Shown: positions 13,137 to 16,525 of the stretch, piece by piece
How positions within the stretch are numbered: position 1 is the stretch's first letter
How the letters are laid out: each line of letters begins with the position of its first letter
Assembly (NCBI RefSeq): GCF_014298075.1
Contig: NZ_CP060418.1
Coordinates: 4,216,001-4,280,000, forward strand
Length of the DNA stretch: 64,000 bases
Direction of reading: 5' to 3'
Source: Enterobacter sp. JUb54
Lineage (GTDB): Bacteria; Pseudomonadota; Gammaproteobacteria; Enterobacterales; Enterobacteriaceae
The notes under the pieces: model-generated
What the model saw: only the letters and a program-made list of their open reading frames with translations
The model's database searches: none
What the model was told of the DNA's origin: nothing
Position numbers and translations under genes: made by a program

Positions 13137-13511
13137 AATAATAACGCCTTTTTTGTAGGGTGCAGGATAAGACGAACGGGGTAAAGAAACGGCCTGGTAC
13201 TTAGTAGATTCTTAACAGCCAAAGGACCGCTGGCAATTATCTGTGCTTATTTTGCGGTTACGAAATTTCGTTTGTTTGCTGATTTATGACCACGATCTTA
13301 TTTTTAAAAATGATGGTTTGCGCTATATCATTGATATGTCTCTGAAGGGAAAGTGGCGGTGTGGTTATTAATATCGCGTTATGGGATCTGGCGCACGTTT
13401 GTGGATTCTCTCAATGGTGGTGTGAAATAACGTAATTGAGGAAAGTAAAACAGCGATTCTATATTGAGGTCAGAGATATTACCCGCCGCATCCCTGAATA
13501 TGGAGTTCATT
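13137..13511. promoter_or_regulatory. xylF-xylA divergent control region
   Basis: This 375-bp gap holds both xylose promoters. For xylA: a CRP-like site TGTGGATTCTCTCAAT (13400-13415), then the direct-repeat-like XylR stretch GAAATAACGTAATTGAG plus GAAAGTAAAA (13424-13450), then a -10 TATATT (13460-13465). The sequence closely resembles the mapped E. coli region. For xylF, on the minus strand: an XylR-like stretch across 13246-13271, including the palindrome ACGAAATTTCGT (13260-13271), followed by -10 GATAAT (13236-13241). The site names are inferred from similarity to E. coli and position. The middle, about 13272-13399, shows no further assigned element. Confidence 0.65.
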
Positions 13512-14834
13512 ATGCAGACCTATTTCGATCAACTCGATCGCGTTCGTTATGAAGGCCCGAAAACCACTAACCCGCTGGCATTCCGTCACTACAACCCGGA
13601 CGAGCTGGTGTTGGGCAAACGTATGGAAGAGCATCTGCGGTTTGCCGCCTGCTACTGGCATACGTTCTGCTGGAACGGGGCCGATATGTTTGGCGTGGGC
13701 TCTTTTAACCGTCCGTGGCAGCAGCCGGGCGATGCGCTGGAAATGGCCAAACGTAAAGCCGATGTCGCCTTTGAGTTTTTCCACAAGCTGAACGTCCCCT
13801 ATTACTGCTTCCACGATGTGGACGTCTCTCCGGAAGGCGCCTCGCTGAAAGAGTACCTGGAGAATTTCTCCCGGATGGTGGATGTGCTGGCGGCGAAGCA
13901 GGAACAAAGCGGCGTGAAGCTGCTGTGGGGCACAGCAAACTGCTTCACCAACCCGCGCTACGGTGCCGGGGCTGCGACTAATCCGGATCCGGAAGTCTTT
14001 AGCTGGGCGGCGACTCAGGTCGTGACCGCCATGGATGCGACCCACAAACTGGGCGGGGAAAACTATGTCCTGTGGGGCGGTCGTGAAGGTTACGAAACCC
14101 TGCTGAATACCGACCTGCGCCAGGAACGTGAGCAAATTGGCCGTTTCATGCAGCTGGTGGTTGAACACAAACATAAAATCGGTTTCCAGGGCACGCTGCT
14201 GATTGAACCTAAACCGCAGGAGCCAACCAAGCATCAGTACGATTACGATGCCTCTACCGTCTACGGCTTCCTCAAGCAGTTCGGCCTCGAAAAAGAGATC
14301 AAACTGAACATTGAAGCCAACCACGCGACCCTGGCCGGCCACTCGTTCCACCACGAAATTGCCACCGCCATTGCGCTGGGGCTGTTTGGGTCCGTCGATG
14401 CCAACCGCGGCGACCCGCAGCTGGGTTGGGACACCGACCAGTTCCCGAACAGCGTGGAAGAGAATGCGCTGGTGATGTATGAAATCCTCAAAGCGGGCGG
14501 TTTTACCACCGGCGGGCTGAACTTTGATGCCAAAGTGCGTCGCCAGAGCACCGACAAATACGATCTGTTCTATGGTCATATTGGGGCGATGGATACCATG
14601 GCACTGTCGCTGAAAGTGGCGGCGCGCATGATTGAAGAGGGAGAGCTGGATAAGCGCGTCGCGAAGCGCTACGCCGGCTGGAACGGCGATCTGGGCCAGC
14701 AAATCCTGTCCGGGAAAATGACCCTGACGGAGATCGCCCAGTACGCGGCGCAGCATAATCTGGCGCCGCAGCACCAGAGCGGCCATCAGGAGCAACTGGA
14801 GAATCTGGTTAACTATTATCTCTTTGATAAGTAA
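13512..14834 (+). CDS. xylA: D-xylose isomerase XylA
   Basis: A 440-residue class II xylose isomerase, the same length as in E. coli. It converts D-xylose to D-xylulose in the cytoplasm using two divalent metals. The catalytic histidine is in [10 protein letters not shown] (about H101). Metal and substrate ligands lie in [13 protein letters not shown] (E232, K234), [16 protein letters not shown] and [18 protein letters not shown] (the last with the DxD metal site). The ATG at 13512 is preceded by TGGAG at 13501-13505. It is followed by a hairpin, a repeat element and xylB. Confidence 0.97.
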
Positions 14835-14840
14835 TGATGA

Positions 14841-14859
14841 CGCCCGGCACTGCCGGGCG
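14841..14859 (+). terminator. Hairpin after xylA
   Basis: CGCCCGGC and GCCGGGCG pair around ACT, 6 bases after the xylA stop. The stem is strong but the following TTGCAAT is a poor U-tract, so it may stabilise xylA mRNA or attenuate read-through to xylB rather than terminate fully. Confidence 0.5.
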
Positions 14860-14878
14860 TTGCAATAGCATGCATTCT

Positions 14879-15049
14879 CGCGCCACGCTTAGAGCCGATC
14901 CCATTAGGCTATTTTATTTGCCATTTTGGCCCTGGGCAGTGCTCACCATCCTCACGTACTGCGTGTACGCTCCGGTGGTTCCGCGCTGTCCGTGCCCAAA
15001 CTGGCTGCAACATCTACGCCTACTGGGATAGGCTCTTAGCCGTGGCGCG
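14879..15049. repeat. 171-bp palindromic repeat element (MITE-like) between xylA and xylB
   Basis: The ends are inverted repeats. CGCGCCACG (14879-14887) pairs with CGTGGCGCG (15041-15049), and the pairing continues imperfectly inward for about 30 bp (left TTAGAGCCGATCCCATTAGGC, right GCCTACTGGGATAGGCTC). The interior (GGCCCTGGGCAGTGCT ... GTCCGTGCCCAAACTGGC) is also partly self-complementary. I recall similar sequence between genes in Enterobacter and Klebsiella genomes but cannot name the family. It encodes no credible protein; a 65-codon open frame across it is an artefact. It increases the xylA-xylB spacing to 233 bp. Confidence 0.65.
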
Positions 15050-15067
15050 CGATTAAGGAGAGTCCGT

Positions 15068-16525
15068 ATGTACATCGGGATTGATTTAGGCACTTCGGGC
15101 GTGAAGGCCATTCTGCTCAATGAGCAGGGTGAGCTTCTGGCGTCGCACACCGCGCCCCTCAACGTATCGCGCCCACACCCGCTGTGGTCTGAACAAGACC
15201 CCGAGCAATGGTGGCAGGCGACAGACCACGCCATGCAGGCGTTGGGCGCACAGCACGCGCTGCGCGACGTCAAAGCCATCGGTATTGCCGGGCAGATGCA
15301 CGGCGCCACGTTGCTGGATAAACAACAGCGGGTTCTGCGTCCGGCGATTTTGTGGAATGACGGGCGTAGCGGAGACGAGTGTGCCGAGCTGGAACAGGCC
15401 GTGGGGCGCTCGCGGCAGATTACCGGCAACCTGATGATGCCGGGTTTCACCGCGCCGAAATTACTCTGGGTTCAGCACCATGAGCCTGAGATCTTCCGTC
15501 AGGTCGATAAAGTCCTGCTGCCGAAAGATTATCTCCGTCTGCGGATGACCGGTGATTATGCCAGCGATATGTCAGATGCCGCCGGCACCCTGTGGATGGA
15601 TGTCGAAAAACGCGACTGGAGCGATGAGATGCTCGCCGCCTGCGGCCTGAGCCGCGATAACATGCCCGCGCTGTTTGAGGGCTGTGAGGTGACGGGGACG
15701 CTGCGTGCCGAGGTCGCTCAGGCCTGGAATATGCCGCAGGCGCTGGTGGTGGCTGGCGGCGGCGATAACGCTGCCGGCGCGGTCGGCGTGGGGATGGCGG
15801 ACGCGGGCCAGGCCATGCTCTCTTTGGGAACCTCCGGGGTCTATTTCGCGGTCAGCAACGGCTTTCTTAGCAAACCTGAAAGCGCGGTACACAGTTTTTG
15901 CCACGCCCTGCCGGGTCGCTGGCATTTGATGTCGGTGATGCTGAGCGCTGCTTCCTGCCTGGATTGGGCTGCAAAACTGACCGGCCTTGGCACCGTGCCT
16001 GCGCTGATCGCCGCGGCGGAATCGGCGAATGAGCATAGCGATGCGGTCTGGTTTTTACCCTATCTCTCCGGCGAGCGTACCCCGCACAACAACCCGCACG
16101 CCAAAGGCGTATTTTTCGGCCTGACTCATCAGCATGGCCCGGCGGAGCTGGCGCGCGCGGTGCTGGAAGGCGTGGGTTATGCGCTGGCGGACGGCATGGA
16201 CGTGGTGCATGCCTGCGGCGTGAAACCGGAAAGTATCACCCTGATTGGCGGCGGGGCGCGCAGTCCCTGGTGGCGGCAGATGCTGGCGGATATCAGCGGT
16301 CAGCAGCTTGATTTCCGCACCGGCGGTGACGTCGGGCCAGCCCTTGGGGCCGCTCGTCTGGCGCAGCTGGCGCTGCATAAAGGCGTGGCGTTCTCAGACC
16401 TGCTGCCGCAATTGCCGCTGGAACAGGCGCACCGACCCGACGCCGAACGTTTTGCCCGTTATGCGCCGCGCCGGGAAACCTTCCGGCAGATTTATCAGCA
16501 GCTGTTGCCGCTGATGTCGTCATAA
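15068..16525 (+). CDS. xylB: D-xylulokinase XylB
   Basis: A 485-residue FGGY-family kinase matching E. coli XylB (484). It phosphorylates D-xylulose to xylulose 5-phosphate, which enters the pentose phosphate pathway. The N-terminal phosphate-binding loop is GIDLGTSGVKAILL (about residues 4-17), GQMHGA (76-81) contacts substrate, and the catalytic aspartate is in GGGDNAAGAVG. The C-terminal ATP site includes LIGGGARSPWWRQML. AAGGAG lies 6 bases before the ATG. It ends 10 bp from the convergent wecH gene. Confidence 0.96.
   Translation: MYIGIDLGTSGVKAILLNEQGELLASHTAPLNVSRPHPLWSEQDPEQWWQATDHAMQALGAQHALRDVKAIGIAGQMHGATLLDKQQRVLRPAILWNDGRSGDECAELEQAVGRSRQITGNLMMPGFTAPKLLWVQHHEPEIFRQVDKVLLPKDYLRLRMTGDYASDMSDAAGTLWMDVEKRDWSDEMLAACGLSRDNMPALFEGCEVTGTLRAEVAQAWNMPQALVVAGGGDNAAGAVGVGMADAGQAMLSLGTSGVYFAVSNGFLSKPESAVHSFCHALPGRWHLMSVMLSAASCLDWAAKLTGLGTVPALIAAAESANEHSDAVWFLPYLSGERTPHNNPHAKGVFFGLTHQHGPAELARAVLEGVGYALADGMDVVHACGVKPESITLIGGGARSPWWRQMLADISGQQLDFRTGGDVGPALGAARLAQLALHKGVAFSDLLPQLPLEQAHRPDAERFARYAPRRETFRQIYQQLLPLMSS

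Follow-up and report, generated by a model that had tools for sequence, protein, structure and literature searches.

A 144-bp palindromic repeat with IS5-type ends in the xylA-xylB intergenic region of Enterobacter sp. JUb54

The palindrome that separates xylA from xylB in Enterobacter sp. JUb54 very probably contains a 144-bp MITE with IS5-type ends, one of a family found in enterobacteria, which would have been put at an intergenic TTA in trans by an ISPrst3-like transposase. Mobilization in trans is the most likely explanation because the ends and the duplication are shared with an IS5-family insertion sequence (IS) of about 870 bp. Dispersed copies, an empty site, a target-site duplication and matching IS ends were all observed when the window, the 64,000-nucleotide stretch of DNA analysed here (contig NZ_CP060418.1, positions 4,216,001 to 4,280,000), was compared with its own genome and others. 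The transposase of the ISPrst3-like IS would act in trans, and the MITE would insert at the TTA within the 6-nt loop of the xylA-xylB hairpin, doubling that triplet. Multicopy in Klebsiella and relatives and without genes, the element is of an ordinary kind, and the link to IS5 is its modestly new part. An unannotated, operon-splitting palindrome would thus be accounted for, and a widespread enterobacterial repeat would gain a concrete candidate transposase and a target rule, making the mobility of the family testable with one donor plasmid.

Boundaries of the insert and its empty site

The first-pass annotation, made from the letters alone, had described positions 14879-15049 of the window as a 171-bp palindromic element with perfect 9-bp arms that lengthens the xylA-xylB distance to 233 bp. 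The arms (CGCGCCACG/CGTGGCGCG) and the distance are as described, and the palindrome was borne out by folding, since the region is predicted to form a single long hairpin of -92.1 kcal/mol, compared with -55.1 kcal/mol (sd 4.0) in 200 dinucleotide shuffles (z -9.37), none of which was equally stable. The ends of the element had to be moved inwards. When 20 loci were aligned, their common part started near GAGCC and stopped near GGCTC, within the 9-bp arms, and the 171 bp include the host stem and spacer bases in addition to the element itself (Table 1).

Empty sites consisting of exactly CGCGCCACGCTTAGCCGTGGCGCG, that is, the flanks of our own locus with one TTA, were found in 4 of 90 xylA-xylB gaps (K. 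oxytoca, L060; K. michiganensis, L061; L143, from genome G015; and L144, from genome G013). Our own locus has the letters of CGCGCCACGCTTAGCCGTGGCGCG interrupted by 144 bp and another TTA. Because the empty sites hold the same letters without the 144 bp and the second TTA, the outer 9-bp arms are, by this comparison, the stem of a pre-existing host hairpin and not the ends of the element; likewise the inner 144 bp are read as the mobile insert, sitting in the 6-nt loop of that hairpin, and the outer 9-bp stem as a local structure. When a palindrome inserts into a hairpin loop, the two can pass for one larger palindrome, which is a trap for annotation by eye.

The element was absent from 89 of the 90 gaps, our own locus (L135) being the sole carrier. 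These gaps (86 distinct sequences) come from 80 named loci and from loci of the genus search, with some genomes counted twice; among the 98 loci L055-L152, six were without xyl genes, and L139 and L145 were left out on account of strand. A blastn comparison of a 501-base locus query with 20 genomes of the genus, our own included, gave two pieces overlapping by 3-5 bases in relatives such as G018, G011, G017 and G008 (in G018, query bases 1-192 and 337-501 match, with an overlap of 3 bases), and the pieces abut there in L139 and L145 too, outside the 90 gaps. A mechanical frame of 178 aa on the minus strand (14914-15450) crosses the element and is mostly antisense to xylB. The true start of xylA is probably an ATG further inside the frame given in Table 1.

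Table 1. Features of the xylA-xylB region, in positions of the window
Feature	Position	Strand	Basis
xylA (xylose isomerase)	13464..14834	+	Open frame; C-terminal part aligns beside xylB in the 90 gaps; gene name from the first-pass annotation
First intergenic stem-loop, GACGCCCGGC...GCCGGGCGTT	14839..14861	+	RNA fold of the gap; similar stem-loops by eye in many relatives' gaps
Host hairpin, left arm CGCGCCACG	14879..14887	+	Unchanged in L060, L061, L143 and L144, the empty sites
Target-site duplication, left TTA	14889..14891	+	One TTA in empty sites; flanks match in 57 of 74 sites
Mobile element (putative MITE), 144 bp	14892..15035	+	Copy boundaries, alignment
Left terminal inverted repeat GAGCCGATCCCATTAGG (family consensus GAGCCTATCCCATTAGG, with a single change between them)	14892..14908	+	Copy boundaries, comparison with IS ends
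Right terminal inverted repeat CCTACTGGGATAGGCTC	15019..15035	+	Copy boundaries, comparison with IS ends
Target-site duplication, right TTA	15036..15038	+	One TTA in empty sites; flanks match in 57 of 74 sites
Host hairpin, right arm CGTGGCGCG	15041..15049	+	Same letters in the empty sites
xylB ribosome-binding stretch AAGGAGAG, unbroken by the insertion	15055..15062	+	Sequence; AAGGAG-type stretch likewise placed in many relatives' empty gaps
xylB (xylulokinase)	15068..16525	+	Open frame; 80 loci encode relatives with 79-92% identity; gene name from the first-pass annotation

Copies, target sites and hairpin of the family

Other copies in the genome and target-site duplications, for which the first-pass annotation had advised looking, were both found. 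The JUb54 genome (5.30 Mb, one contig) holds 12 complete or nearly complete copies, our own locus included, which match 119-191 of 191 query bases with 80-100% identity, and 22 further shorter or weaker matches to the 191-base query were obtained down to E = 10. Among relatives, 27 of 60 genomes (own included) and 8 of 41 genera showed a match, as did all 20 genomes of the genus. Of 5426 complete E. coli genomes, 5375 matched, with a median of 5 places among genomes with any, and 522 had a place covering at least 80% of the 191 query bases, some of which belong to the window flanks. For example, E. coli K-12 has a copy between glrK/qseE and qseG, flanked on each side by TTA. Matches to the same query were present in 162 of 72,556 plasmid records, and 24 of 50,697 phage records matched, some of which go by the name of Salmonella genomes and measure 290-690 kb. 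A Yersinia P2-like phage carries a partial copy (120 of 191 query bases) between gpL (head completion) and gpM (terminase); only parts of the gpL/gpM flanks matched in related phages, and an empty site was not obtained from them.

For the analysis of insertion sites, 80 extra copies with flanks from 16 relatives were taken as near-full-length places among the matches listed, a choice that favours intact copies, and together with the 12 copies of our own genome these 92 gave 74 distinct sites once those with similar flanks had been merged. Identical 3-bp flanks were seen in 57 of these 74 sites of near-full-length copies among the matches listed (31 TAA, 25 TTA and 1 TTT), leaving 17 sites without matching flanks. 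TWA was present on both sides in 58 sites, of which 56 were matched, compared with 29.3 expected, and none of 100,000 re-pairings was equally good. The modal element length was 145 bp (47 of 74 sites), and the consensus terminal inverted repeats carry GAGCCTATCCCA at either end, for a total of about 17 bp including a mismatch.

The duplicated triplet overlapped a stop codon in 16 of 70 sites and lay inside a called frame in 8 of 70, according to crude ORF calling (at least 100 codons) that wrongly placed our own site inside a frame. Stop overlap was found in 12 of the 55 sites with matched duplications. As the control, non-coding TWA triplets from the same flanks gave 52 of 829. The excess was significant against all non-coding TWA triplets (Fisher p 9e-4 to 4e-7), and was not seen against other TWA triplets within 60 nt of a gene 3′ end (p 0.05 to 0.21). 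In the sites sampled, these data show an insertion bias towards gene 3′ ends, with the stop codon itself unproven as the target. A preference for hairpin loops was also considered and is unsupported, with flank stems of at least 6 in 5 of 74 sites and about 3.1 expected from flank re-pairing. Since no loop preference is supported, placement in the loop at xylAB, whose 9-bp stem is the longest seen, may be chance.

Several individual copies differ from the modal form. A long subtype of about 205 bp (L239, 1504-1708) has about 60 additional bases (CGCCCTTCAGGGCGGCC...) close to its tip, and was also observed in our own genome at C1:2379641-2379826 (L013, L017); its 17-base motif CGCCCTTCAGGGCGGCC occurs 9 times in four genomes of the genus (own 1, G006 4, G007 4, G014 0). 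Another own copy (C1:4830227-4830367, L009) shows the GC-rich hairpin CCCCCTCCCATGCGGGAGGGGG in place of the left end. An efflux RND permease gene on plasmid pCFR-4109 has a copy at its 3′ end (L022, 3001-3152); the annotated frame ends inside the terminal repeat, so that the element appears to provide the final codons of the gene together with its stop. Copies of the same identity and beside a gene of the same name recur on many Klebsiella and Citrobacter plasmids among the matches listed. In five own-genome copies (L004, L005, L006, L010 and L012) the TAA or TTA flank lies on the stop codon of a neighbouring frame, and in L004 on those of two convergent frames.

Conservation of the hairpin was evaluated in 69 copies of 143-146 bp from the 74 distinct sites, with 5 omitted for length. 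With a structure taken from these sequences' own consensus and thereby favoured, and with related copies that are not independent, 94.0% of cells paired over a full-length hairpin, and pairing fell to 32-40% when the partner was slid along. Changes on both sides were found in 13 of 53 pairs (7.5 in shuffles) and in 114 cells (34.9 in shuffles), and none of 500 shuffles was as high for either measure. Further pair types were no more numerous than in shuffles (46 versus 46.3; 332 of 500). RNAalifold returned a weaker structure from the same alignment (25 pairs, -17.1 kcal/mol, two ends unpaired), which still contains the inner helices where compensation is clearest (columns 55/89, 56/88 and 57/87). 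The covariation thus tested suggests that compensatory changes among copies maintain the hairpin, a pattern that hairpin-templated correction could produce equally as well as selection. As for structural RNA families, Xanthomonas sX9 was the only one to appear, below threshold (26.3 bits; gathering score 44), and nothing reached its gathering score.

Candidate partner IS and known repeats

An exact search of four genomes of the genus for TWAGAGCCTRTCCCA as an end pattern revealed a single inverted pair, in G007, with its members about 870 bp apart and spanning a PF13340 match. This copy (L253, 867 bp) is degenerate, and is the only one with such ends seen in the genus. Its open pieces scored above the cut-off for PF01609 (37.3 versus 23 bits), and below it for NF033580 (63.8 and 58 versus 110) and PF13340 (33 versus 34.3). 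The plasmid collection had 103 records matching the L253-type IS, 50 of them over at least 80% of its length, and an IS5-family transposase was annotated in 21 of 30 plasmid records among the matches listed, two of which name ISPrst3. Matches were also detected in 11 of 198 genomes of the family, and the coding part of L283 had a match in 199 of the 5426 E. coli genomes, with 197 records reaching at least 99%. Nine IS copies were inspected (L253 and L283-L290); TAA/TAA or TTA/TTA flanks were present in six (L284, L285, L287, L288, L289 and L290) and unmatched flanks in three (L253, L283 and L286). Six of the eight plasmid copies (L283-L288) carry an annotated IS5-family transposase.

The nine copies resemble the MITE in the outer 12 bases, GA[G/A]CCTATCCCA, followed by ..AGG with small variations, and in the TAA/TTA duplication. 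They differ from it in their length of about 870 bp and in having a transposase gene, and the likeness is limited to the outer 17 bases or so. Because it stops there, descent of the MITE from the IS by simple internal deletion is not shown by these sequences. The properties observed are those of a MITE: a non-coding element of 144 bp, too short for a transposase, with inverted repeats, a constant 3-bp duplication, multiple dispersed copies and ends in common with autonomous ISPrst3-like IS5-family elements. A transposase gene, which marks an IS5-family element proper, belongs to the presumed partner and not to the MITE.

We infer an ISPrst3-like IS as the transposase source, none having been detected in the genome today: at the thresholds used, JUb54 had no match to NF033580, PF13340 or the IS DNA. 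Since neither a cognate transposase nor a RAYT matched in this genome, its copies look orphaned and their current mobility is doubtful. Some NF033580 match was found in 10 of 20 genomes of the genus, four of them above the cut-off. The exact ends were present in none of the loci checked among the IS5-family copies of G018 (15 PF13340 matches), and a 45-base end query against plasmids revealed MITE copies and many Borreliella matches resembling chance, and no partner IS. Of the related full-length elements that the first-pass annotation had anticipated, the transposase-encoding one with the same ends was thus found, and a RAYT was not seen in our own genome.

As a name for the family, the best candidate is the RSA repeat (also BEE95), which we take to be probably the same element. 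RSA is a palindromic, intergenic repeat dispersed in E. coli and other enterobacteria, of about 152 bp and with about 6 copies in E. coli K-12. In comparison, our element with both duplications measures about 150 bp, and matching E. coli genomes have a median of 5 places, one of them glrK/qseE-qseG in K-12. Our literature search, with most subscription papers outside it, found no paper linking RSA to a TWA duplication, IS5-type ends or ISPrst3. ERIC differs from the element in sequence and target, and REP/BIME repeats are RAYT-linked and are not known to have IS5-type ends. ERIC (IRU, RU-1) is described as an enterobacterial, intergenic, imperfect palindrome considered MITE-like, and is set apart by its length of 127 bp (PMC2759123, PMC2267715), as are by theirs the small enterobacterial repeats RU-2 (168 bp) and RU-3 (103 bp) of Delihas 2007 (PMC2759123). 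REP/BIME share the palindromic, extragenic character and differ in having units of 21-65 nt, according to PMC3751351, where a reference title gives BEE95 elements as RSA sequences.

The first-pass annotation had proposed a non-autonomous mobile or a REP-derived element. The former is upheld by dispersed copies, empty sites and the duplication, and by the existence of an element that shares the ends and encodes a transposase. A REP/BIME-type element with a RAYT (TnpA_REP) as its transposase would also be palindromic, intergenic and repeated, and one family copy (L179) lies in flanks that look BIME-like by eye; we nevertheless regard it as extremely improbable, as the element is not a RAYT-linked unit of 21-65 nt, having about 145 bp, a 3-bp TWA duplication and IS5-type terminal repeats, and as no Y1_Tnp/RAYT (PF01797) match was obtained in JUb54 with a search whose E. 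coli control was positive. The 3-bp duplications and the missing RAYT match lead us to reject a REP-derived origin.

Host hairpin and xyl expression

The GCGCCACG...CGTGGCGC hairpin was found in 20 of 90 gaps, and many of the remaining gaps have another stem-loop. A fold of -10 kcal/mol or lower was predicted in 85 of the 86 distinct xylA-xylB gaps (loci L055-L152), a count taken with no shuffled control, and the letters differ widely between genera. That nearly all gaps fold despite such divergence suggests an intercistronic hairpin conserved in position. The predicted fold of the gap changes from -42.6 kcal/mol when empty (flanks joined) to -117.8 kcal/mol when occupied, with the host stem unchanged, and since the palindromic element sits in the hairpin loop, the xylA-xylB mRNA is predicted to have one very long hairpin replacing a short one. 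With regard to the uncoupling of isomerase and kinase levels that the first-pass annotation had put forward as a possibility, a consensus scan of 14800-15120 detected no terminator-like and no outward promoter-like site. Because the insertion leaves the host stem, both frames and the ribosome-binding stretch of xylB undamaged and adds no terminator-like site, the effect on xylA/xylB expression is most likely small, with a modest change or none in xylB. Slowed decay or stabilization of the upstream xylA part, or RNase III cutting, would be possible.

Two other explanations assign the palindrome a role in the operon. A conserved, non-mobile local regulatory structure would agree with the folding of 85 of 86 distinct gaps, and the host hairpin that surrounds the element fits this description; for the 144-bp insert this reading can be given next to no credence, since the insert fills 1 of 90 gaps and is multicopy elsewhere, and the empty sites refute it. 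The first-pass annotation had named a single copy conserved at this exact site as the pattern that would argue for local regulation, and the opposite was observed. Co-option of the MITE, in which the long transcript hairpin would alter the xylA:xylB ratio via upstream stabilization or RNase III cleavage, is considered unlikely. It is favoured by the gain in predicted gap energy with the host stem retained, by the compensatory changes that preserve the palindrome among copies, and by precedents in a review (PMC10969869), where Correia elements are cut by RNase III and ERIC has RNase E effects. On the other hand, upkeep of the hairpin is a family-wide trait of mobile copies and not specific to xylAB, the xylAB site is filled in only 1 of 90 gaps, and the RNAalifold consensus is much weaker, with its ends unpaired. 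No study of the xylA-xylB stem-loop was found by the literature search, most subscription papers being outside its reach.

For a mobile MITE with an ISPrst3-like partner a broader proposal can be made, though only tentatively. A decades-old orphan repeat family of enterobacteria, probably RSA, would be a MITE driven by ISPrst3-like IS5 transposases; compensatory change would actively keep its palindrome since the structure matters, either in mRNA or as a substrate for transposition. The TWA target would let it settle harmlessly at gene ends, often on a TAA stop, or in hairpin loops.

Another insert was observed in the same intergenic region of a relative. The 193-bp xylA-xylB gap of Citrobacter sp. 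18056 (L078, about 2315-2440) contains a different insert of about 125 bp (CCGTCATACTTCAAGCTGCA...TTATTTAGGGTAT), which is apparently an independent insertion into this gap.
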